From: Gemmatimonas sp.
GTDB lineage: Bacteria; Gemmatimonadota; Gemmatimonadetes; Gemmatimonadales; Gemmatimonadaceae
Direction: 5' to 3'
Assembly (NCBI GenBank): GCA_013822425.1
Contig: PNKL01000021.1
Coordinates: 1 to 45,147, forward strand
Length of the DNA stretch: 45,147 nt
Shown here: in pieces, positions 9,281 through 22,039 of the stretch
Numbering within the stretch: the stretch's first letter is position 1
Layout: each line of letters starts with the position of its first letter
Made by a program: the position numbers and the translations under genes
The notes under the pieces: model-generated
What the model was told of the DNA's origin: nothing
Databases searched by the model: none
Seen by the model: only the letters and a program-made list of their open reading frames with translations

Positions 9281-9325
9281 CCTCGCTACGCCTCTACCCC
9301 CTCCTCGTTCCGACCCTCGTCCCCG
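9281..9325. repeat. Single arm of the family-B repeat
   Basis: CCTCGCTACGCCTCTACCCC followed by CTCCTCGTTCC matches the right arm of the elements at 2316-2456 and 15811-15904. No left arm is present; it may have been lost with the deletion in the adjacent peptidase remnant. On the minus strand the arm supplies the last codons and the TAG stop of the CPBP gene. Confidence 0.8.
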
Positions 9326-12300
9326 CCCGCACCAGCACCAGGCACGCCCCGCACGCCACCCACGCGAGCGCTGCCCCCGCTCGCTCTTCCGCGGTCGCCG
9401 ATTCGAACATGCTGCGTGTGGCATCGAACAGGCTCATCAGGATGCTCGCGGCAAACCAGGTGATCGCCGACCCCGCGGCATAGTGGCGCAACGCGAGCAC
9501 TGCCGCCGGCACCGACAGCACCGCCACGGCGCCGAGCGCGGTGGGGTACCGCAGCGCCGGCAGGTCCGCTTCCATCGCGGCCAGCGTGCCGCCGACAAGG
9601 AGCACGATCACGAGCCCGAGTCCGGCGCGGGCCGCCACCGTACGCGCGAGCAGCAGCACGACGAACACTGCCAGCGCCGGTACGACGACACGCATCACGA
9701 CGTCGACCGGCAACGACAGCACCTGAACGAGCCACGGCAGGGCGCTGTCGAGCGACGCGTCGCCGACTGACATCGGCATGGCGCGAACGCGCGCCCACCG
9801 CAACGCCGCGAAGATGGCGGCGAACGTGCCGGCGAGGCCCACGGCGGCGCGCAGCACGTCGGGCCACGTGTCGCTCGCCCTTACAAACGGCACCCCAACG
9901 CGCCGCCGCAGTCCGTCGAACGCCAGCCACATCCCGAGGAGCACGCCAACCATGGCAAGCGAGATGACGCCGAACACGAGCGTGCTGCCAAGGAACGACC
10001 GCCACTCCACTGCGGTGTCGTACGAGGCAAGCGCCCTCGGCAATTCGTTCAGCAGCGAGACGCCCAGCGTCAACGCCAACACGCCCGCCGCAATCCACAG
10101 TCGCCGCGCGCCGAGTGGACGGTCCTCAACGACGTTCGCGCGGTATCGGCGCACATAGAACACGCCGATGAGCAACAGGCCGAGCAACCCGAATATCAGC
10201 GCGCCGCTGATCATCACCCGCGTCAGCTGACGCTGCCGGTCGTCGCGACGGAACGCCTCCGGGAGTTCGAGCCCTTGGCGCACCACCGTCACCTCGTTGC
10301 CCGCCATCGTCACCCAGGCGCGGGCCAGCGCCTGACCGGGGAGATGCCGCACGGTATCGGTGTACGTGATCGTGATGTCCTTGCGGCGCGCGCCTGCGGC
10401 GTTGGGCGGCTTGACATCAGCGGCGAGCCTGGCTTCCACGAACCGCAGCGTGTCGAGCCGCGCCGAAGCGAGCGCACGTCGTGCCAGGGCGCGCGCCTGG
10501 TCATCGCCCACGGAATCGCGCCATGCGGTGTCGGCGAGCAGGTGGCGCACGTCCAACAACCGGCCGTTGGGCCAGACGCGCACGCGCCATTCCTCGGCCC
10601 GCTCCGCGAGCGTCCCCCGCGGTCGCACATATCGCACCACCCACCACGCGGCGGGGTGAATGCTCGAAGCGAGCGGCTGGGCAAGCGATTCGGCGTGTTC
10701 GCGCACGAGGAAGCGCGGCAGGGCATCCATGGTGTCGCGGGCGACGCGCGACAATGCCGTCCACCCGGAGGTCACGACGCCGCGGGACGCCAGGGCGGAA
10801 TCGGCCACGCGCACGGCCGTCGCGCGGTCAGCCGTCAGCCGCGGCCCGAGTGGCTCCCGCGATGGGACCACCATCGTGAGGAGGATGCCCACCACGCCAG
10901 CCACCAGCGCCATCGTCCTCGACCGCGGCGTCAGGCGGGATTCCCTGTGCGCGGTCGTGACCGGTGTTGCGGCTTCTCGCGGCGGCTGAATCCACGCACC
11001 GAGTGACTGGGACGCGGTCGCCTCCGCCAGTCCGCGATTGCGCCACACTGTCCAGGCTACGGCGGCGGCCGGCGCCAACCCGATCAGCACCGCGATGGCC
11101 GTCGTGACGCGATACGCGAGCCCACTGCCCGCGCCCGCGAACAGGCTGAACAGCACGAAGTCGTACAGGAAATGCCCGAGCATCGCAGGCAGCGGGCCGA
11201 AGGCGAGCACGATCACCGCCCAGAGCGACGACTCGATGAACAACTCGACGCCGCGCGAGTACGCCGGCCAGCTCAGGTACGATGCGTGCGCAAACCCGAA
11301 CACCAGCGCGGTGCCCACGACGCCGAGCGCCATGATGCGCGTGCGATGGGGGCGGTCCTTGGCCCAGATGGCGAGCAGCGAGAGCGGCAGCACGCGGAAC
11401 ATCGCCTCTTCCCAGACGCCCGCCTGCAACGAGATGGCGAGCCCGCCCAGCCACGGCAGCCGGGTTGCAACCTGGTTGGGGTCGTCGAGCATCTCGCTCG
11501 GCGTCCACCAGCCGAGCAGCTGGCGCGCCATCAGGTAGAACAGGCACACATACAGCAGGCCGAAGGCGGCCACCGCGTAGCCGCCGAGCACCTGTCCGGC
11601 GACCTGTCGCGTGCCCCGCGCCTTCCACCATTGCCACCAGTCGAGCTGTGATGGGAAGGCACGCCGTGTCGCGGCTTCAGCGGCGGCCAGCGTGAGTCCG
11701 ACCAGCACTGCCGTGAGCAGCCCTTCCAGCACCACGGTCCCGATGGACTGCAGCCGGAAGGTGGCGGCCGACGTCGCCGTGTCATAGTCGTACCAGGCCA
11801 GCGGCAGGCTGTTGACGCCCGCGCCTGCCACCAGCAGTCCGATTACACCGCCCGCAACGAGCGCCGGGCGCCAGCGAATGCCACCATCCTTCGAGAAGCG
11901 GAGAAGGGCAAGCACGCAGGCGAAGAGCAGCGCCACTTGCCCGATGCCGGACAGCGATGCGAGCAGGGCGTTGGCGGCGCGCATTTCGGTGAAACGGCGC
12001 TCGAACGTCTGTGGCACGTCCACCGATCGCGTCGCCTCGATTGGCAGGTCGCCTCCAATCACGACCTTCAGGCGAAGCGGCGCGCCCAACAGGCGCCGGC
12101 CGGTGCGCTCGAACACAAAGGTGCGGTCAATGCGGTTGCTCGCCGCCTTGGTGTCGTAGCTCGAGGAGACGAGCACCCACCGCGCCGACGGCTCGCCGAG
12201 CCACACCTCCCGCACACGCTCGGCGAGCGCACGCGCCGAGTCCACGCCCAGCGACGGTCGCGGTTCGCTGTCGGCCAGCGTGCGCCTGAAGCCGATGACG

Positions 12301-12677
12301 CGTCCGTCGGGAGCGAGCGTGACGTTCGTCTCGCGCACTTCGCCGGGCGTGAAGCGGCGTACCTGCCAGCGGTAGAGCGCGTGATCGGTGCCGCGCGCCA
12401 CGGCGCGTACCGTGTCGGCGCCGCCGTCGAGGTCAAGGAAGATCTGCGTCTTGCTGTCGGCGGTGAACCGCGCAGCCATGCGCGTGCCCGTGCGCGGCAG
12501 GTCGTGCGCCACCGCGAACGAATCGGCCTTCTGCCTGGCGATGGGTCCGGTGAGGCGTTGATCGACCGAGAGAATGGGAAAGGCGCGCGGAAAGAGCGCG
12601 GCGGCGGCAGCGCCGCCGCCGAGCACGACGACGATGAGGGCGACCGCGGCTCGCCGCTCCGCGCTACGCGACCGCAC
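9294..12677 (-). CDS. Large CPBP-family intramembrane protease-like protein with duplicated architecture
   Basis: 1127 residues from GTG 12677, overlapping the PAP2 gene by 14 nt. The first half has a signal anchor, an extracytoplasmic region of about 200 residues and then a polytopic domain. That domain bears the CPBP (Abi) motifs EEAMFR (about 420), FGFAHAS (about 460) and GHFLYD (about 500). The second half repeats the plan: an anchor near 590, a soluble region of similar character (RLTADRATAVRVADSALASRG...) and a membrane domain in which I find no EExxxR or HxxxD/N motif. CPBP proteins are Rce1-like metal-dependent proteases in the membrane. Normal members are 200-350 residues, so this is unusually long. 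Only the N-terminal copy looks catalytic. Confidence 0.8.
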   Translation of the reverse strand: MRSRSAERRAAVALIVVVLGGGAAAAALFPRAFPILSVDQRLTGPIARQKADSFAVAHDLPRTGTRMAARFTADSKTQIFLDLDGGADTVRAVARGTDHALYRWQVRRFTPGEVRETNVTLAPDGRVIGFRRTLADSEPRPSLGVDSARALAERVREVWLGEPSARWVLVSSSYDTKAASNRIDRTFVFERTGRRLLGAPLRLKVVIGGDLPIEATRSVDVPQTFERRFTEMRAANALLASLSGIGQVALLFACVLALLRFSKDGGIRWRPALVAGGVIGLLVAGAGVNSLPLAWYDYDTATSAATFRLQSIGTVVLEGLLTAVLVGLTLAAAEAATRRAFPSQLDWWQWWKARGTRQVAGQVLGGYAVAAFGLLYVCLFYLMARQLLGWWTPSEMLDDPNQVATRLPWLGGLAISLQAGVWEEAMFRVLPLSLLAIWAKDRPHRTRIMALGVVGTALVFGFAHASYLSWPAYSRGVELFIESSLWAVIVLAFGPLPAMLGHFLYDFVLFSLFAGAGSGLAYRVTTAIAVLIGLAPAAAVAWTVWRNRGLAEATASQSLGAWIQPPREAATPVTTAHRESRLTPRSRTMALVAGVVGILLTMVVPSREPLGPRLTADRATAVRVADSALASRGVVTSGWTALSRVARDTMDALPRFLVREHAESLAQPLASSIHPAAWWVVRYVRPRGTLAERAEEWRVRVWPNGRLLDVRHLLADTAWRDSVGDDQARALARRALASARLDTLRFVEARLAADVKPPNAAGARRKDITITYTDTVRHLPGQALARAWVTMAGNEVTVVRQGLELPEAFRRDDRQRQLTRVMISGALIFGLLGLLLIGVFYVRRYRANVVEDRPLGARRLWIAAGVLALTLGVSLLNELPRALASYDTAVEWRSFLGSTLVFGVISLAMVGVLLGMWLAFDGLRRRVGVPFVRASDTWPDVLRAAVGLAGTFAAIFAALRWARVRAMPMSVGDASLDSALPWLVQVLSLPVDVVMRVVVPALAVFVVLLLARTVAARAGLGLVIVLLVGGTLAAMEADLPALRYPTALGAVAVLSVPAAVLALRHYAAGSAITWFAASILMSLFDATRSMFESATAEERAGAALAWVACGACLVLVRAGTRVGTRRG

Positions 12678-15932: not shown

Positions 15933-16583
15933 ATGCCTCTCCCCGCCCTCCTCTTCGATCTCGATGGCACGGTCGTCGATTCCATCGAGCTCATCGTCCA
16001 GGCCGCCGTGCACGCCTTTGACGGGCGTGAGGGGCCGCGGCCGACGCGCGAGGAGTGGGTGGCGCTGATCGGCACGCCGCTGGCGCCGATGCTGCGGCGG
16101 TGGGCGCACGATGACGATGACGTGAAGTTCCTGTGGGACCGGTACCGCGCCTATCAGATTGAGCACCACGACCGGCTCGTGTCGGCGTATCCGGGGGCGG
16201 TGGAACTCATCCGGCGGCTGCACGCGCGCGGACATGCGATGGCGATCGTGAGTTCGAAGTTGGAGTCCGGCATCCGGCGCAGTCTCGATTATGTGGGAAT
16301 CACCGACTGCTTTGGCGCGCTCATCGGCATCGAGGCCACCGAGAAGCACAAGCCCGAGCCCGAGCCGGTGCTGCTGGCGCTCGAACGGCTCGGAATGTCG
16401 GCGAGCGATGCCTGGTTCATTGGCGACTCGCCGTACGACGTGCTGGCCGGTCACGCGGCGGGGGTGCGAACGATCGGCGTGTTGAGCGGACCGTATGATC
16501 GCGCGGCGATGGAGCATGCGAAGCCGATGCACCTGGTGGAATCGCTTACCGACATCGAGCCGCTGCTGGTCGCAGGCAATTGA
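15933..16583 (+). CDS. HAD-family phosphatase (Gph/PpaX-like)
   Basis: 216 residues from ATG 15933. The HAD motifs are in order: I, D9-L-D11-G-T; II, AIVSSK; III, the Lys of EKHKPEPEP; IV, GDSPYDVLAGHAAG. A helical cap between motifs I and II places it in subfamily IA with phosphoglycolate and pyrophosphate phosphatases. D9 would be phosphorylated and D11 act as acid/base. The substrate is uncertain; a house-cleaning role on phosphoglycolate or pyrophosphate is possible. The 3' end is duplicated in the next 33 bp. Confidence 0.9.
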   Translation: MPLPALLFDLDGTVVDSIELIVQAAVHAFDGREGPRPTREEWVALIGTPLAPMLRRWAHDDDDVKFLWDRYRAYQIEHHDRLVSAYPGAVELIRRLHARGHAMAIVSSKLESGIRRSLDYVGITDCFGALIGIEATEKHKPEPEPVLLALERLGMSASDAWFIGDSPYDVLAGHAAGVRTIGVLSGPYDRAAMEHAKPMHLVESLTDIEPLLVAGN

Positions 16584-16673: not shown

Positions 16674-19600
16674 GTGCTCACCGTCACCGATGCCGCCGCG
16701 CTGCTGCAGCGCACCTCCGACCGCCGCGGACGCGTGGCCCTGCTTCGCATGCTGGGCTTTCGTGCGCCGGCTGGCGATCTCGACCCCGATGCGGCGCGGC
16801 GACTCGGCCTTGATTACCCGCTGCAGCGCGTCGAGGTCGCGTCGGGACCCGGCACACTGCGCGCACTGCTGCTCGAGGTCCCGATGTCGGCGTCACTCCG
16901 CGACACCGCCGGACGCGCGGCACGCAGCATTGCGACGCGCGCACCGGAACTCCTCTGGCTGGTGCTTGCGGCGCAGCGTCAGAGCGCGGTGGCGCTCCTG
17001 GTTCCGGCGCCGGGGGGCGCTGCTCATGCCGCGGCGATGGTGGTGGAGCCTGCCATGGTGCGGCCTGGCGACGCCGAATCGCTCGTCGCGCTCGAGGGCG
17101 GTCGCAGTGACAGCGACCTCGACACGCACCTGCGCTGGCGTGAGGCGCTCGGCCGCGACGCGCTGACACGGCGATTCTATCGGGAGCTTGAACAGGCCGT
17201 GCTCGCGTTGGCCGGCGGCGCGCGCGGCGCCGCTGACAGCGCCACGCGTCACGCCCTTGCCCTGCGCTGCACGTCTCGCCTGCTCTTCCTCTCGTTTCTT
17301 GAAGCAAAGGGATGGCTCGACGGCGACCGCGCCTTCCTGTCGCGGCAGGTGGCCGCGCGCGGCAACCGGCTGCACGGCACGCTGCTCGAGCCCTTGTTCT
17401 TCGGGACGCTCAATGCGCCGATGTCGCGCCGGTCCCCCGCCGCCCGCGCCTTCGGCCGCCTGCCCTTCCTCAACGGCGGCCTCTTCACGCGCGACGTGCT
17501 GGAGAAGCAGCATCGCGCGTTGCGATTCGCGGACGAGGACATCGCGCGCATCGTTGGTGAGCTGCTCGCGCGCTACCGCGTCACCGCCCACGAGGGATCG
17601 GCCGAGTTCGCCGAAGCGGCGGTGGACCCGGAGATGCTCGGCCGCGCATTCGAGTCGTTGATGGCATCGGATGATCGGCGACTTACGGGCGCCTTCTACA
17701 CGCCGCCCACGATGATCCGCCACATCACGGACCTCGCGTTGGATGCGGCGCTCTCCGGGCCGGAGCAGCGCTCGGCACTCGCAGAGGCGCGAGCGGGCCG
17801 TGTGGCCGACGACGACGCCGCCACGCGGCTCCGCACCGCACTCAATGACCTGCGCATTCTGGACCCAGCCTGCGGTACGGGCGCCTTTCTCGTGCATGCG
17901 ATGACGGAGGTTTCCCGTCTGCTGGCGGCAGCGCACGACGCGCGTCCGGAGCATGTGCGGCGCCGCGCCGTGCTCGCCCAGTCGATCTTCGGCGTCGACA
18001 TCAATCCCACCGCCATCTGGCTGTGCGAACTGCGGCTGTGGCTCTCCGTGGTGGTGGACAGCCCGGAGCGCGATCCGCTGCGCGTGCCGCCGCTGCCAAA
18101 CCTCGACCGGCACATTCGCTGCGCCGACGCGCTCGCGGGCCCCGCCTTCGATGTCACGGGTGGCGGCGACGCCGGCGTCACGCGGTTGCGCGAGCGGTAC
18201 GCCCGCGCCACCGGACCCCGCAAGCGTTCGCTGCAGCGCGCGCTCGACCGTGCCGAACGCACGCTCGCGGTGGACGCGGTGGAGCGACGGCTCGCGGTGG
18301 CGGCGTTGAAGCGGCGTGACCTGGTGTGCGCGCTGCGCGGGCGCGACCTGTTCGGCAGGCGCCGCGTGGCCACGGCCACCGAGCGCGCGGCGCTCGACGA
18401 GTGGCGGCGCGACGCGCGAGGGCTGCGCCGCGCGCTCGCGGCGCTGCGCGCCGGCGGCGCCGTCCCCTTCGGCTTCGCGTCGCACTTCGGCGACGTGGCG
18501 CAACGCGGCGGCTTCGACCTCGTCGTCGGCAACCCGCCGTGGGTGCGACTGCATCGCATCCCGCCCAGTGAGCGCACGGCGCTGCGCGCCCGGTATGAGT
18601 CCATGCGCGATGCCACATGGCGGGCGGGAGCGGTGGCGAGCGGCGCCATGTCCGGCTTCGGCATGCAGGCCGATCTCTGCGCGCTCTTCACCGAACGCGC
18701 CGCTTCACTCGTGCGGCCCGCTGGCGTGGTGGCGCTGCTCGTGCCGTCGAAGCTGTTCCGCAGCCTCGCTGGCGGGGGGCTTCGCGCGCTCCTGGCGCGC
18801 TCCACGGCGCTGCTGTCCTGCGAGGACCACTCGGCGGGTCGTGCGCTGTTCGACGCCGCTGTCTATCCCGCCATTCTCCTGCTCCGGCGTGAGCGCGTGG
18901 CCGGGCGCTCGCGGGCAGGTGCGGACGTGGCATGCGCCGTAGTGCGCCGAGATGTCGAATGCCGCTGGCGCACGCCGCTCGGCCGAATGGCGCTCGACGC
19001 CAGCGACGGAGCCCCCTGGCTGCTGCTGCCACCGCCTGTGCGCGACGCCTTCGATGCGCTCGTGGCGGCAGGGACACCGCTTGCCGACACCCCGTTCGGG
19101 CGTCCGCTGCTCGGCGTGAAGAGCGGGTGCAATGACGCCTTTGTCGTGCAGCCGGAGGCGTCGTGGGCGGCGCGATCGGGCGTCGCGTCGTGCACGGTGC
19201 GGAGCGGCGAGCGCGAGGGGCTCATCGAGCGCGCGTTGTTGCGCCCCGCGTTGCGCGGCGAGGACCTCACGGCCTTCGCCGGACCTGCGCTGCAGCGCGC
19301 CATCATCTGGACGCACGACGCATCACTGCAGCCGCTGCGCTCCCTGCCGCCGCGCGCGGGTCGCTGGCTGTCGCACTGGCGGCCGACCCTCGAGCGGCGC
19401 GCCGATGCGCGGTCTCGCGACCAGTGGTGGTCGCTCTTCCGTCTCGAAGCCTCCGTCCGGGGCTGGCGCGTTGCCTGGGGTGATGTGGGACGGACGCCGC
19501 GCGCCGTGGTGCTCCCGCCGGACGATGACACCGTGCCGCTGAACAGCTGTTACGTCGTGCGCGCACCCTCCGAAGACGACGCCGACGCCCTCGCCACGTG

Positions 19601-19865
19601 GCTCAACGCCCCGCTCGCCGTCGCCTGGCTGGGCGCAATCGCGGAACCCGCACGAGGAGGGTACCACCGCTTCCTCGGCTGGACGATGGCGCGCCTGCCG
19701 CTGCCGTCCGACTGGCCGGCCGCGCGCCGCCTGCTCGCAAGCATCGGACACGCCGCGCGCGCGGGTCACGTGCCGTCCCCCGCTGAGCTGCATGAATGTT
19801 CACTCCGCGCCTTCCGCGTATCCGCGTCGCTGATGGAGCCGTTGCTGACATGGACGCGCTGGTAG
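16674..19865 (+). CDS. Large Eco57I-like class I N6-adenine DNA methyltransferase
   Basis: 1063 residues from GTG 16674. An N-terminal domain of about 170 residues is followed by a helical region with LLFLSFLEAKGWL and ESLMASDDRRLTGAFYTPP, the usual lead-in of this family. AdoMet motif I is DPACGTGAF (D397), a FGVDINPTAIWLCELRLWL segment follows, and the catalytic motif is N620-P-P-W (VVGNPPWVRLHRI). The C-terminal 300 residues, from LLGVKSGCNDAF, look like a TaqI-type target-recognition domain. I cannot find a clear PD-(D/E)xK nuclease in the N-terminus. The next gene is an overlapping SNF2-like helicase, so this is probably the modification and recognition part of a restriction or anti-phage system. 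Confidence 0.9.
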   Translation: MLTVTDAAALLQRTSDRRGRVALLRMLGFRAPAGDLDPDAARRLGLDYPLQRVEVASGPGTLRALLLEVPMSASLRDTAGRAARSIATRAPELLWLVLAAQRQSAVALLVPAPGGAAHAAAMVVEPAMVRPGDAESLVALEGGRSDSDLDTHLRWREALGRDALTRRFYRELEQAVLALAGGARGAADSATRHALALRCTSRLLFLSFLEAKGWLDGDRAFLSRQVAARGNRLHGTLLEPLFFGTLNAPMSRRSPAARAFGRLPFLNGGLFTRDVLEKQHRALRFADEDIARIVGELLARYRVTAHEGSAEFAEAAVDPEMLGRAFESLMASDDRRLTGAFYTPPTMIRHITDLALDAALSGPEQRSALAEARAGRVADDDAATRLRTALNDLRILDPACGTGAFLVHAMTEVSRLLAAAHDARPEHVRRRAVLAQSIFGVDINPTAIWLCELRLWLSVVVDSPERDPLRVPPLPNLDRHIRCADALAGPAFDVTGGGDAGVTRLRERYARATGPRKRSLQRALDRAERTLAVDAVERRLAVAALKRRDLVCALRGRDLFGRRRVATATERAALDEWRRDARGLRRALAALRAGGAVPFGFASHFGDVAQRGGFDLVVGNPPWVRLHRIPPSERTALRARYESMRDATWRAGAVASGAMSGFGMQADLCALFTERAASLVRPAGVVALLVPSKLFRSLAGGGLRALLARSTALLSCEDHSAGRALFDAAVYPAILLLRRERVAGRSRAGADVACAVVRRDVECRWRTPLGRMALDASDGAPWLLLPPPVRDAFDALVAAGTPLADTPFGRPLLGVKSGCNDAFVVQPEASWAARSGVASCTVRSGEREGLIERALLRPALRGEDLTAFAGPALQRAIIWTHDASLQPLRSLPPRAGRWLSHWRPTLERRADARSRDQWWSLFRLEASVRGWRVAWGDVGRTPRAVVLPPDDDTVPLNSCYVVRAPSEDDADALATWLNAPLAVAWLGAIAEPARGGYHRFLGWTMARLPLPSDWPAARRLLASIGHAARAGHVPSPAELHECSLRAFRVSASLMEPLLTWTRW

Positions 19866-22039
19866 CCGTGCAACGGCGCATCGCCGACGCCATCGCCGGC
19901 GAAGCGCCGGATGCTGATGCCCGCCTCGGCAGGGTTCGCCTGCGACCGCATCAGGTGGACGCCGTGCATCGACTGCGTGCGGCCATGCGTTCGCACGGCG
20001 GGGCGCTGCTCGCCGATGCTCCCGGACTTGGCAAGACGTACGTGGCCCTGGCCGTCGCGCGCGCCTGCGGCGGCGCGATGGTCATCGCCCCCGCGGCGCT
20101 GCGCGCGCAGTGGATGCGCTCGGCCGCGCTCGCCGCCGTGCGCGTGGAGTGGCGGTCGCTCGAGCAGCTCAGCCGGCGGTCGGCAGCCTCCGCGGCGCCT
20201 CTGCTCGTCGTGGACGAGGCGCATCACCTGCGCAACCCGCTCACGCGACGCTATGCGCATGCCGCCGCACTGGCCATCGGCAAGCGCGTCCTCCTGCTGT
20301 CCGCCACGCCCGTGCACAACCGTGCCGAGGATCGCGATGCACTGTTCGCCCTCTTCCTTGGACCGGCCGCTGCCACCCTGCCTGCCGACGTCCTGGCGCG
20401 ACTCATCGTGCGGCGCGAGGCGGAGGCGACGCTCCTTCCTCGCCGTCGCCCTGTACGCTGGCTCCGACCTCCGCCTCACCCCGACGTCAGCGCATTGCTG
20501 TGTGCGCTTCCACCGCCACTCCCGGCCGCGGATGGACGGGCAGCGGTGGCGCTGGTACGACTCACCCTCGCGCACGCGTGGTCGTCAAGCATGGCGGCGC
20601 TCGATGCGACGGTGCGGCGCGCCCTCCATCACGCCGCGGCCATTGATGACGCACTCACGGCGGGGCGCTGGCCGACGCGCCGCGAGCTGCGCGCGTGGGT
20701 CACCACCGCCGAGTCGTCCCAGTTGGCATTCCCCGAGCTCGTCGCGGCGCCGGCGCGCACGGACCTCGGGGCGGCACGCACGATCCTCGCCCGCCACGTG
20801 CGCGCACTCGTTGCCCTGCATGCACGCGTAGTCGGAGCGCGCGATGGTGACACCGCCGCGCGCGCCGCGCTCCTGCGTCGCGTGCTCGACACACACCCCG
20901 CCGCGACGATCGTCGCGTTCTCGCGCTACGCCGGCACCATTGATGCCCTCTGGCACGCGCTGCGATTCGAGGCGGGCGTCGTGGCGATCACGGCGCGGGG
21001 GGTGCGGTCGGCAGGAGGCGGACTGAGTCGCCTGGACGTGCTCGCCGCACTGGCATCCGATGCCGTCGAGGACGCACGCGCTCCCCTGCGGCTCGTGCTG
21101 AGCACCGACCTTTTGGGCGAGGGCCTCGACCTGCGCGCCGCTTCGGTAATCGTCCACCTCGATCAGCCGTGGACTCCGGCACGGATCGACCAGCGCGAGG
21201 GGCGCGCGCTGAGGCTTGGTTCGCCACACGCGACGGTCGCAGTCTACGCGGTGCGGCCGCCGCGCGGTGCGACGCGCCTGCTCGCGCTTGCGGCGCGCTT
21301 GCAACACAAGCGATGCGCCATGGACTCGAGCGTGGAGGCGGGCACGGCACGCGAATCGCTGCTCGCACGTGTTCGCCCGTGGCAGCAGGCACCGCGCGGC
21401 GGCGCCAGGGTGGCGGCGGCGTGTGCAGGTTCGAATGGCTGGGTGGCGGTTCTTCGCGACGCGAGTGGCCGCGCGCGCGTGGTCGTGAGCGACGGCTGCA
21501 CGGTCGTTGAAGACGACGCACGACTGCTCGATGTGCTCGCGCGCGTTGAGCCAGGCCGTGCGGTATCGCCACCTGCGGAGCGGCTGCGCGAGGCCCACAG
21601 ATACATTCGAGACTGGCTTCGCGCTGACGCTTCGGCCGCGCTGGCGGGCGCGCACGCGGGCGCGCACGCGGGCGACCGCGGCAGCCGCGCGGCGATCGCG
21701 CGACGGCTGGACGCCGCGTTGCGCTCGGCGCCGCTCACCCTGCGTGCCGCCCTTCAGTCACGGATTGTCGCGGCACAGGCCCGGACGGCCGTCATGTCCG
21801 GCGCCGGTGTCGAGCGGGCCCTTGCTGCGGCCCTGAAGAGCGAGAGCGTGGAGGAACTACTCAATGCTGTAGAAGCCATCGGCGAGCCGCAGGATGACAA
21901 ACGGCCAGCAGCGCGCGGATCGCGGCTGCTGGCCCTGTTGCTGCTCGTCGCCCACGAGCAGAGGAGCCTTACCGGTCCCCCGCCGCTCCCAATCGCCCCT
22001 CGCTCAGCAGCTTCGCCTGGAACCGCTGCGCCTCGCTGA
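19850..22039 (+). CDS. SNF2-like superfamily 2 helicase/translocase partnered with the methyltransferase
   Basis: 729 residues from ATG 19850, inside the end of the methyltransferase gene (16-nt overlap); ATG 19796 is an alternative. Helicase motifs: I, APGLGKT (K62); II, D122-E-A-H; III, LLSATPVHN; V, STDLLGEGLDL; VI, DQREGRALRLGS (about 447), where the usual second Arg pattern QRxGRxxRxGQ is slightly changed. An Ala/Arg-rich C-terminal part of about 200 residues is unassigned. SNF2-type enzymes translocate on duplex DNA. Pairing with a type II-like adenine methylase recalls DISARM (DrmMI/DrmD) and split type ISP or Hma-like systems, but no third gene is seen. The 3' end overlaps the convergent gene by 71 nt. 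Confidence 0.88.
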   Translation: MDALVAVQRRIADAIAGEAPDADARLGRVRLRPHQVDAVHRLRAAMRSHGGALLADAPGLGKTYVALAVARACGGAMVIAPAALRAQWMRSAALAAVRVEWRSLEQLSRRSAASAAPLLVVDEAHHLRNPLTRRYAHAAALAIGKRVLLLSATPVHNRAEDRDALFALFLGPAAATLPADVLARLIVRREAEATLLPRRRPVRWLRPPPHPDVSALLCALPPPLPAADGRAAVALVRLTLAHAWSSSMAALDATVRRALHHAAAIDDALTAGRWPTRRELRAWVTTAESSQLAFPELVAAPARTDLGAARTILARHVRALVALHARVVGARDGDTAARAALLRRVLDTHPAATIVAFSRYAGTIDALWHALRFEAGVVAITARGVRSAGGGLSRLDVLAALASDAVEDARAPLRLVLSTDLLGEGLDLRAASVIVHLDQPWTPARIDQREGRALRLGSPHATVAVYAVRPPRGATRLLALAARLQHKRCAMDSSVEAGTARESLLARVRPWQQAPRGGARVAAACAGSNGWVAVLRDASGRARVVVSDGCTVVEDDARLLDVLARVEPGRAVSPPAERLREAHRYIRDWLRADASAALAGAHAGAHAGDRGSRAAIARRLDAALRSAPLTLRAALQSRIVAAQARTAVMSGAGVERALAAALKSESVEELLNAVEAIGEPQDDKRPAARGSRLLALLLLVAHEQRSLTGPPPLPIAPRSAASPGTAAPR

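Follow-up and report, generated by a model that had tools for sequence, protein, structure and literature searches.

Organization of the locus

The 45,147-nucleotide window analyzed here is one whole contig (PNKL01000021.1) from the Gemmatimonas sp. assembly GCA_013822425.1, a genome of 3.57 Mb and 99% completeness, and carries on its forward strand two overlapping genes for an adenine DNA methyltransferase (MTase) and an SNF2/RapA-type ATPase (hereafter the helicase). This arrangement was the subject of an original prediction made from the DNA letters, which described a 1063-residue Eco57I-like methylase with a recognition domain overlapping a 729-residue SNF2 translocase; both open reading frames (ORFs) are confirmed by our analysis, and the Pfam assignments agree. 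The features of the pair are given below, with residues as amino acids (aa).

16674..19865, + strand: adenine DNA MTase; ORF with a GTG start, 1063 aa, Eco57I/CamA/BseCI-like (gamma group), with the recognition domain in a single polypeptide
16674..17147, + strand: N-terminal domain of the MTase (aa 1-158); evolves fast, without invariant residues or a nuclease signature
17862..17888, + strand: DPACGTGAF (aa 397-405), the S-adenosylmethionine-binding motif I of the MTase; fully or almost fully conserved across 38 orthologues
18531..18542, + strand: NPPW (aa 620-623), the catalytic motif IV of the MTase; unchanged across 38 orthologues
19041..19703, + strand: MTase target-recognition domain (TRD), approximately aa 790-1010; conservation slightly below that of the catalytic core
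19850..22039, + strand: SNF2/RapA-type ATPase; ORF of 729 aa from the ATG at 19850, or 747 aa from the ATG at 19796
20024..20038, + strand: helicase Walker A (GLGKT); both glycines and the lysine invariant in 35 orthologues
20213..20224, + strand: helicase DEAH box; D, E, and H invariant in 35 orthologues
21191..21205, + strand: helicase motif VI (QREGR); Q, R, G, and R invariant in 35 orthologues
21311..22036, + strand: C-terminal region of the helicase, after K505; zero invariant residues and no nuclease signature

For the MTase, Pfam returned Eco57I (1.3e-17) and N6_Mtase (6.5e-8), and its structure was predicted with a local confidence (pLDDT) of 88 and a global score (pTM) of 0.87. Here, the nearest folds are those of CamA (Z 29.8 over 524 residues), BseCI (27.6), BrxX (27.6), and MmeI (24.7). 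The helicase matched SNF2-rel_dom (3.2e-10) and Helicase_C (8.4e-10), and its predicted structure (pLDDT 84, pTM 0.84) lies closest to INO80, CSB, SNF2h, and ZorD (Z 19-20), with RapA as the sequence match in the PDB (2e-30). Of the two possible helicase starts, the ATG at 19850 (729 aa) appears likelier than the ATG at 19796 of the longest ORF (747 aa), because the 16-nt overlap with the MTase that it creates recurs in several orthologous loci. Moreover, the SAT motif of the helicase is also invariant or nearly so over the 35 orthologues, and both enzymes look catalytically intact from their motifs. In PADLOC and NCBIfam, the two proteins showed only partial or sub-threshold kinship, namely to type IIG, DrmMI, PglX, DrmD, DpdE, and RapA.

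Distribution and inheritance of the pair

To place the pair in the phylum, we sampled 298 genomes evenly across it, of which 172 belong to the same order, Gemmatimonadales (families f1, f2, and f3). Within the order, the MTase is encoded in 158 of the 172 genomes and both genes in 152, whereas 14 genomes have neither and the helicase was never found without the MTase (0/172). Of the 60 nearest genomes, 55 encode the MTase and 52 the helicase, with coordinates that are nearly always adjacent. Adjacent pairs are found as well in families f9 and f4, which belong to the same class but stand outside the order, and helicase matches in family f5 are attributed to a separate, nuclease-bearing (armed) system. 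Six genomes of the order have the MTase only; in two of these it lies at a contig edge (G005 and G247), three have a truncated MTase (G304, G135, and G190), and in the sixth, Gemmatirosa kalamazoonensis (G025), the helicase is truly lost. The G190 remnant (L273:1512-2108) is an open ORF that holds only the N-terminal domain of the MTase (~195 aa). Genomes that lack the pair are smaller than the others (median 2.75 vs 3.59 Mb, p 4e-4).

In the MTase tree, the five families form one clade each, with 5 label changes being the minimum, and the helicase tree divides into the same groups, except that the small f4 set is not recovered as one clade. In fact, the two trees correlate with a Mantel rho of 0.81 overall (0/1000 permutations), 0.76 within f1, and 0.85 within f2. 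As judged from the sequences, vertical inheritance of the pair goes back to the ancestor of the order or further, probably to that of the class. Carriage on a mobile element was considered and rejected, as a phage search gave no match and the plasmid matches were only to distant armed relatives.

The original prediction had asked whether the two genes travel together, and allowed for a chance pair if linkage were absent elsewhere; the linkage is instead strong. That the genes are chance neighbours with unrelated roles is hardly credible: although the helicase lies ~12 kb from the MTase in G022 and is missing from G025, such a view is at odds with their adjacency in nearly all of the order and in f4 and f9, the overlapping frames, the joint loss of both genes (Fisher p 3e-16), the matching trees, and the same pairing in the plasmid relatives. 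The same prediction had also entertained a partial relic, should homologues always be found with further DISARM or BREX genes, but the homologues lack such company.

Search for a nuclease

The absence of a third gene, of a phospholipase D (PLD) nuclease, and of any clear nuclease motif, as noted in the original prediction, holds for the window. The same cannot be said for its suggestion that nuclease activity might hide in the N-terminal 170 residues of the methylase or the C-terminal 200 of the helicase, for which we obtained no support. Neither aa 1-158 of the MTase (38 orthologues) nor the helicase after K505 (35 orthologues) has an invariant residue or conserved catalytic-type residues, and an ExK motif is absent from the MTase N-terminal domain, including when aligned with the methylases of the armed outgroup. 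Likewise, a Pfam scan of both proteins returned no nuclease domain, and the helicase has no PLD. A hidden PD-(D/E)xK or HKD nuclease in these two regions was thus rejected for want of a conserved acidic/basic set, though both are barely covered by the fold-match lists and an inactive nuclease-like fold is compatible with the data. Beside the pair, no conserved nuclease gene was found in 41 loci.

Armed relatives and probable loss of the PLD nuclease

Beyond the phylum, there are only a few distant relatives (27-30% identity in the MTase), namely plasmids of Nostoc, Calothrix, Thermus, and Deinococcus along with two cyanobacterial contigs. The plasmid-borne systems of Nostoc, Thermus, and Deinococcus are located as follows.

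L244:6494-14761
L243:6704-13489
L246:7112-14472
L245:7749-17119

These plasmid relatives (PADLOC C3a139, HKD+Snf2) have the closest methylases outside the Gemmatimonadota, with an SNF2 helicase in the same operon. They differ from the pair in being plasmid-borne, in the 1-3 extra ORFs that follow the methylase, and in the helicase after these, which is ~1.1 kaa in length and carries an intact PLDc_2. In the Nostoc and Thermus plasmids the intervening ORF is ~420 aa, the Nostoc one having no Pfam or PADLOC match and the Thermus one a weak methylase match. In the Deinococcus plasmid, the methylase and the PLD-SNF2 helicase are instead separated by a GmrSD_N (DUF262) gene and a RelA/SpoT-like ORF.

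In family f4, a separate ORF between the methylase and the helicase (or else the N-terminal part of the helicase) aligns with the plasmid PLD domains (HHalign probability 93%, E 2.7e-7, score 51, with shuffled columns reaching at most 17), but the HxK and GSSN residues are lost. Among the loci of the order (f1-f3), no homologue of this PLD-like domain was found. The f9 helicases (L228, L229, L230, and L231) have a family-conserved N-terminal extension of 165-200 aa without recognizable PLD residues, and a degenerate PLD in it was not demonstrable. We infer that the direction was the loss of PLD rather than its gain, because f4 holds a dead intermediate and PLD is widely used in the outgroup.

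An armed sibling also exists in the same phylum, where a 1368-aa Eco57I-type methylase neighbours a 1094-aa helicase that has a PLD nuclease at its N terminus. The locus of this two-gene system is as follows.

L252:946-8365 (G001:C8); also L253, L254, and L275-L304

No further large defence-like gene was seen in the 9 kb fetched at the armed sibling locus. Its methylase occurs in 24 of the 298 genomes, 3 of them in the order, and other Eco57I-family MTases are scattered among the genomes of the phylum as well. Restriction-like systems of the ordinary kind thus have a patchy distribution in these genomes, unlike the MTase-SNF2 pair.

With its nuclease already gone, the pair could be viewed as an addictive or drifting relic, that is, a fossil restriction system kept by inertia or post-segregational dependence with no present use. 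The truncated remnants in G304, G135, and G190 and the loss in small genomes would suit such a view, but we regard it as very unlikely, given that the catalytic motifs of both enzymes are invariant at order-wide depth, that loss is rare, and that nothing enforces addiction when there is no nuclease.

Target recognition and a candidate mark

The TRD shows little sign of exchange, as the ratio of TRD to catalytic identity is at least 0.83 at every divergence and a swapped TRD was found in 0 of 703 pairs. For the armed control, the corresponding ratio is 0.67-0.72 at 30-60% catalytic identity.

A candidate for the methylated motif is provided by G. kalamazoonensis KBS708, the methylome of which contains three m6A motifs, RGATCY, ATGCAC, and CCAGN7TCA, each >99% methylated (PMC3974934). 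A type I system (HsdR, HsdS, and HsdM) is encoded in its genome and fits CCAGN7TCA. In this genome (loci L134 and L269) the core methylase is kept, and there is also a full MmeI-type enzyme, with genes for a T5orf172/MUG113 protein and a DEAD-box protein next to it. We take this enzyme to fit ATGCAC, as is known to be usual for the MmeI family. Families PF01555 and PF02086 are absent from the genome. By elimination among the families searched, RGATCY is the candidate product of the core methylase, and ATGCAC the alternative, though one weakened by the better-fitting MmeI-type enzyme in the same genome. RGATCY is palindromic, like the BseCI site. In the literature collection searched, no study of restriction or methylation in the Gemmatimonadota turned up beyond this Gemmatirosa methylome.

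In ~1 Mb of locus sequence, RGATCY and ATGCAC were not consistently over- or under-represented. This touches on whether the pair might belong to a restriction system whose nuclease is encoded elsewhere in the genome and recruited by the helicase. There is precedent in DISARM and Dpd, where the PLD nucleases are separate proteins (PMC12458937), and the PLD-like domain of f4 can likewise be a separate gene. However, that f4 domain has neither catalytic residues nor a homologue in the loci of the order, no nuclease is conserved beside the pair in the 41 loci, and RGATCY, ATGCAC, and GATC are not strongly avoided, all of which makes this an unlikely explanation.

Comparison with known systems

The nearest solved fold, CamA, is the core orphan adenine methylase of Clostridioides difficile (PMC8187626). 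The likeness extends to the sequence profile (1e-20), the gamma-group assignment, a C-terminal recognition domain, fixation in a taxon, and the lack of a restriction enzyme. On the other hand, CamA has ~580 aa, stands alone, and belongs to one species, whereas the MTase described here has 1063 aa with an N-terminal and a helical region, is accompanied by an SNF2 partner, and spans a whole order. As with core orphan methylases of the Dam, CcrM, and CamA kind, the MTase is taxon-fixed and vertical (158/172 genomes, with family clades), its catalytic motifs are intact, and there is no cognate nuclease. To our knowledge, an SNF2 partner is known for none of Dam, CcrM, and CamA.

The original prediction was right to see kinship with components of DISARM and type ISP systems. 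DISARM class I (DrmMI and DrmD) and ARMADA (ArmA and ArmB) similarly have a PglX/YeeA-like adenine methylase adjoining a RapA/SNF2-like helicase; the pair locus differs in having no DrmA/YprA-like helicase, DrmB, DrmC, or UvrD helicase, and the pair is not patchy. Among the ten neighbours covered by PADLOC, neither the DISARM class I core genes DrmA and DrmB (DUF1998), nor DrmC, which usually accompanies them, nor the BREX components PglZ and BrxC were present, and no YprA-like helicase of the ARMADA kind is found among the immediate neighbours (a search limited to the locus, rather than the rest of the genome). The curated models for DrmD (NF038317, 67 bits vs a cut-off of 610) and BREX PglX (NF033451, 42.9 bits vs 400) were both missed. 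BREX-related type 2 systems consist of an HKD-SNF2 helicase, an N6-methylase, DUF499, and DUF3780 (PMC12839542), and thus also combine an N6-methylase with an SNF2 helicase. Their N-terminal HKD/PLD is shared by the helicases of the plasmid relatives but not by that of the pair, DUF3780 was not seen, and DUF499 (PF04465) is absent from this genome and present in 4 of 60 relatives. For Hma, the HmaA match was partial (42 bits), with no third defence gene at the locus. Lastly, with type IIG/IIL (MmeI) and type ISP (LlaGI) enzymes, the helical connector, methylase, and recognition domain align (Z 24-25), though the pair has no nuclease and its helicase is a separate protein.

These likenesses bear on the suggestion of the original prediction that the pair is a possible minimal defence system. 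In a nuclease-free form of such defence, the methylase would mark self, and the SNF2 motor would sense unmethylated incoming DNA and block its replication or transcription in a BREX-like manner, with the system being kept nearly order-wide. Consistent with this, the best PADLOC matches are to type IIG, DrmMI, DpdE, and DrmD, the MTase structure is close to BrxX/PglX, and a helicase without an MTase is never found, as would be expected for a self/non-self pair. Yet the pair is distributed as a core gene, with synteny and vertical descent; PADLOC gave zero matches for its ten neighbours in the window, the TRD is not diversified, and the scores fall far short of the curated cut-offs for DrmD, DpdE, and PglX. 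Defence systems move horizontally and have a patchy distribution, and because the pair is near-universal, vertical, and syntenic across the order, the defence reading is not supported; we consider it a doubtful explanation, albeit the most serious of those set against a housekeeping role.

Genomic neighbourhood

Recurring neighbours in the 41 loci are a NUDIX hydrolase, a dicarboxylate symporter, a glycosyltransferase, an LD-carboxypeptidase, a HAD phosphatase, a sigma factor, an anti-sigma factor, and DUF4097 proteins. In the window, the HAD phosphatase lies just upstream of the pair.

15933..16583, + strand: HAD-family phosphatase; Pfam HAD_2, 5.7e-43

Its homologues are near the pair in 24 of the 40 fetched loci (L117-L156); in this genus they precede the pair, and in most other lineages they follow it. 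That it stays beside the pair despite switching sides hints at a functional link, and it is a possible operon partner. Elsewhere in the window, a 1127-aa ORF (9294-12677, - strand) lies in a stretch of strong AT skew, and none of the 40 related loci fetched contains a homologue of it.

Proposed role as a core DNA-marking module

Taken on the sequence evidence, we favour, with some confidence, a reading in which the pair is a two-gene core module with a non-restricting housekeeping role rather than a defence system. Its ancestor would have been a restriction-like adenine methylase with a PLD-nuclease/SNF2 helicase, or would have been shared with such a system. The nuclease would then have been lost, being active-looking in the plasmid relatives, deprived of its catalytic residues in f4, and absent as a domain in the order. 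Most likely, the methylase, with its stable specificity, marks the whole chromosome with N6-methyladenine at a fixed motif, while the SNF2 ATPase would translocate on double-stranded DNA. Mark and motor may act jointly on the cell's own DNA, for example with the motor clearing or remodelling DNA-bound proteins when gated by methylation. Such a module could serve in replication, repair, or gene expression, as do the core orphan methylases Dam, CcrM, and CamA. More tentatively, and by analogy, methylation might steer the motor on the chromosome, in which case the pair would be a bacterial counterpart to the DNA methylation and SNF2 remodellers (DDM1/LSH) of eukaryotes, evolved by removal of a nuclease.

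Several points weigh against a housekeeping module. BREX-like defences work without a clear nuclease, so the absence of one does not prove that the pair serves something other than defence. Mean column identity is 30% in the helicase vs 47% in the MTase, and such faster evolution is frequent in defence proteins. Moreover, the difference in TRD conservation between the pair and the armed control is moderate and gone above 60% identity, and the f9 helicase extension could not be linked to PLD. Methylation by the core enzyme is itself a prediction, and G. kalamazoonensis has no helicase, yet its motifs are >99% methylated; if one of these is the mark of the core methylase, then the helicase is not needed for methylation in that organism.

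If a core role is indeed the case, then profile-based annotation would label a probable core function as anti-phage across a whole order, which calls for caution. The conversion from defence to housekeeping would be directly testable, in a phylum that has cultured members (Gemmatimonas and Gemmatirosa) and almost no epigenetic data. Its apparent stages of disarming can be seen in the relatives, with the nuclease present on the plasmids, dead in one sister family, and gone in the order. Core orphan methylases that have cellular roles are few in number and mostly stand alone (Dam, CcrM, and CamA), whereas the methylase of this pair is fixed across the order together with an SNF2 motor.

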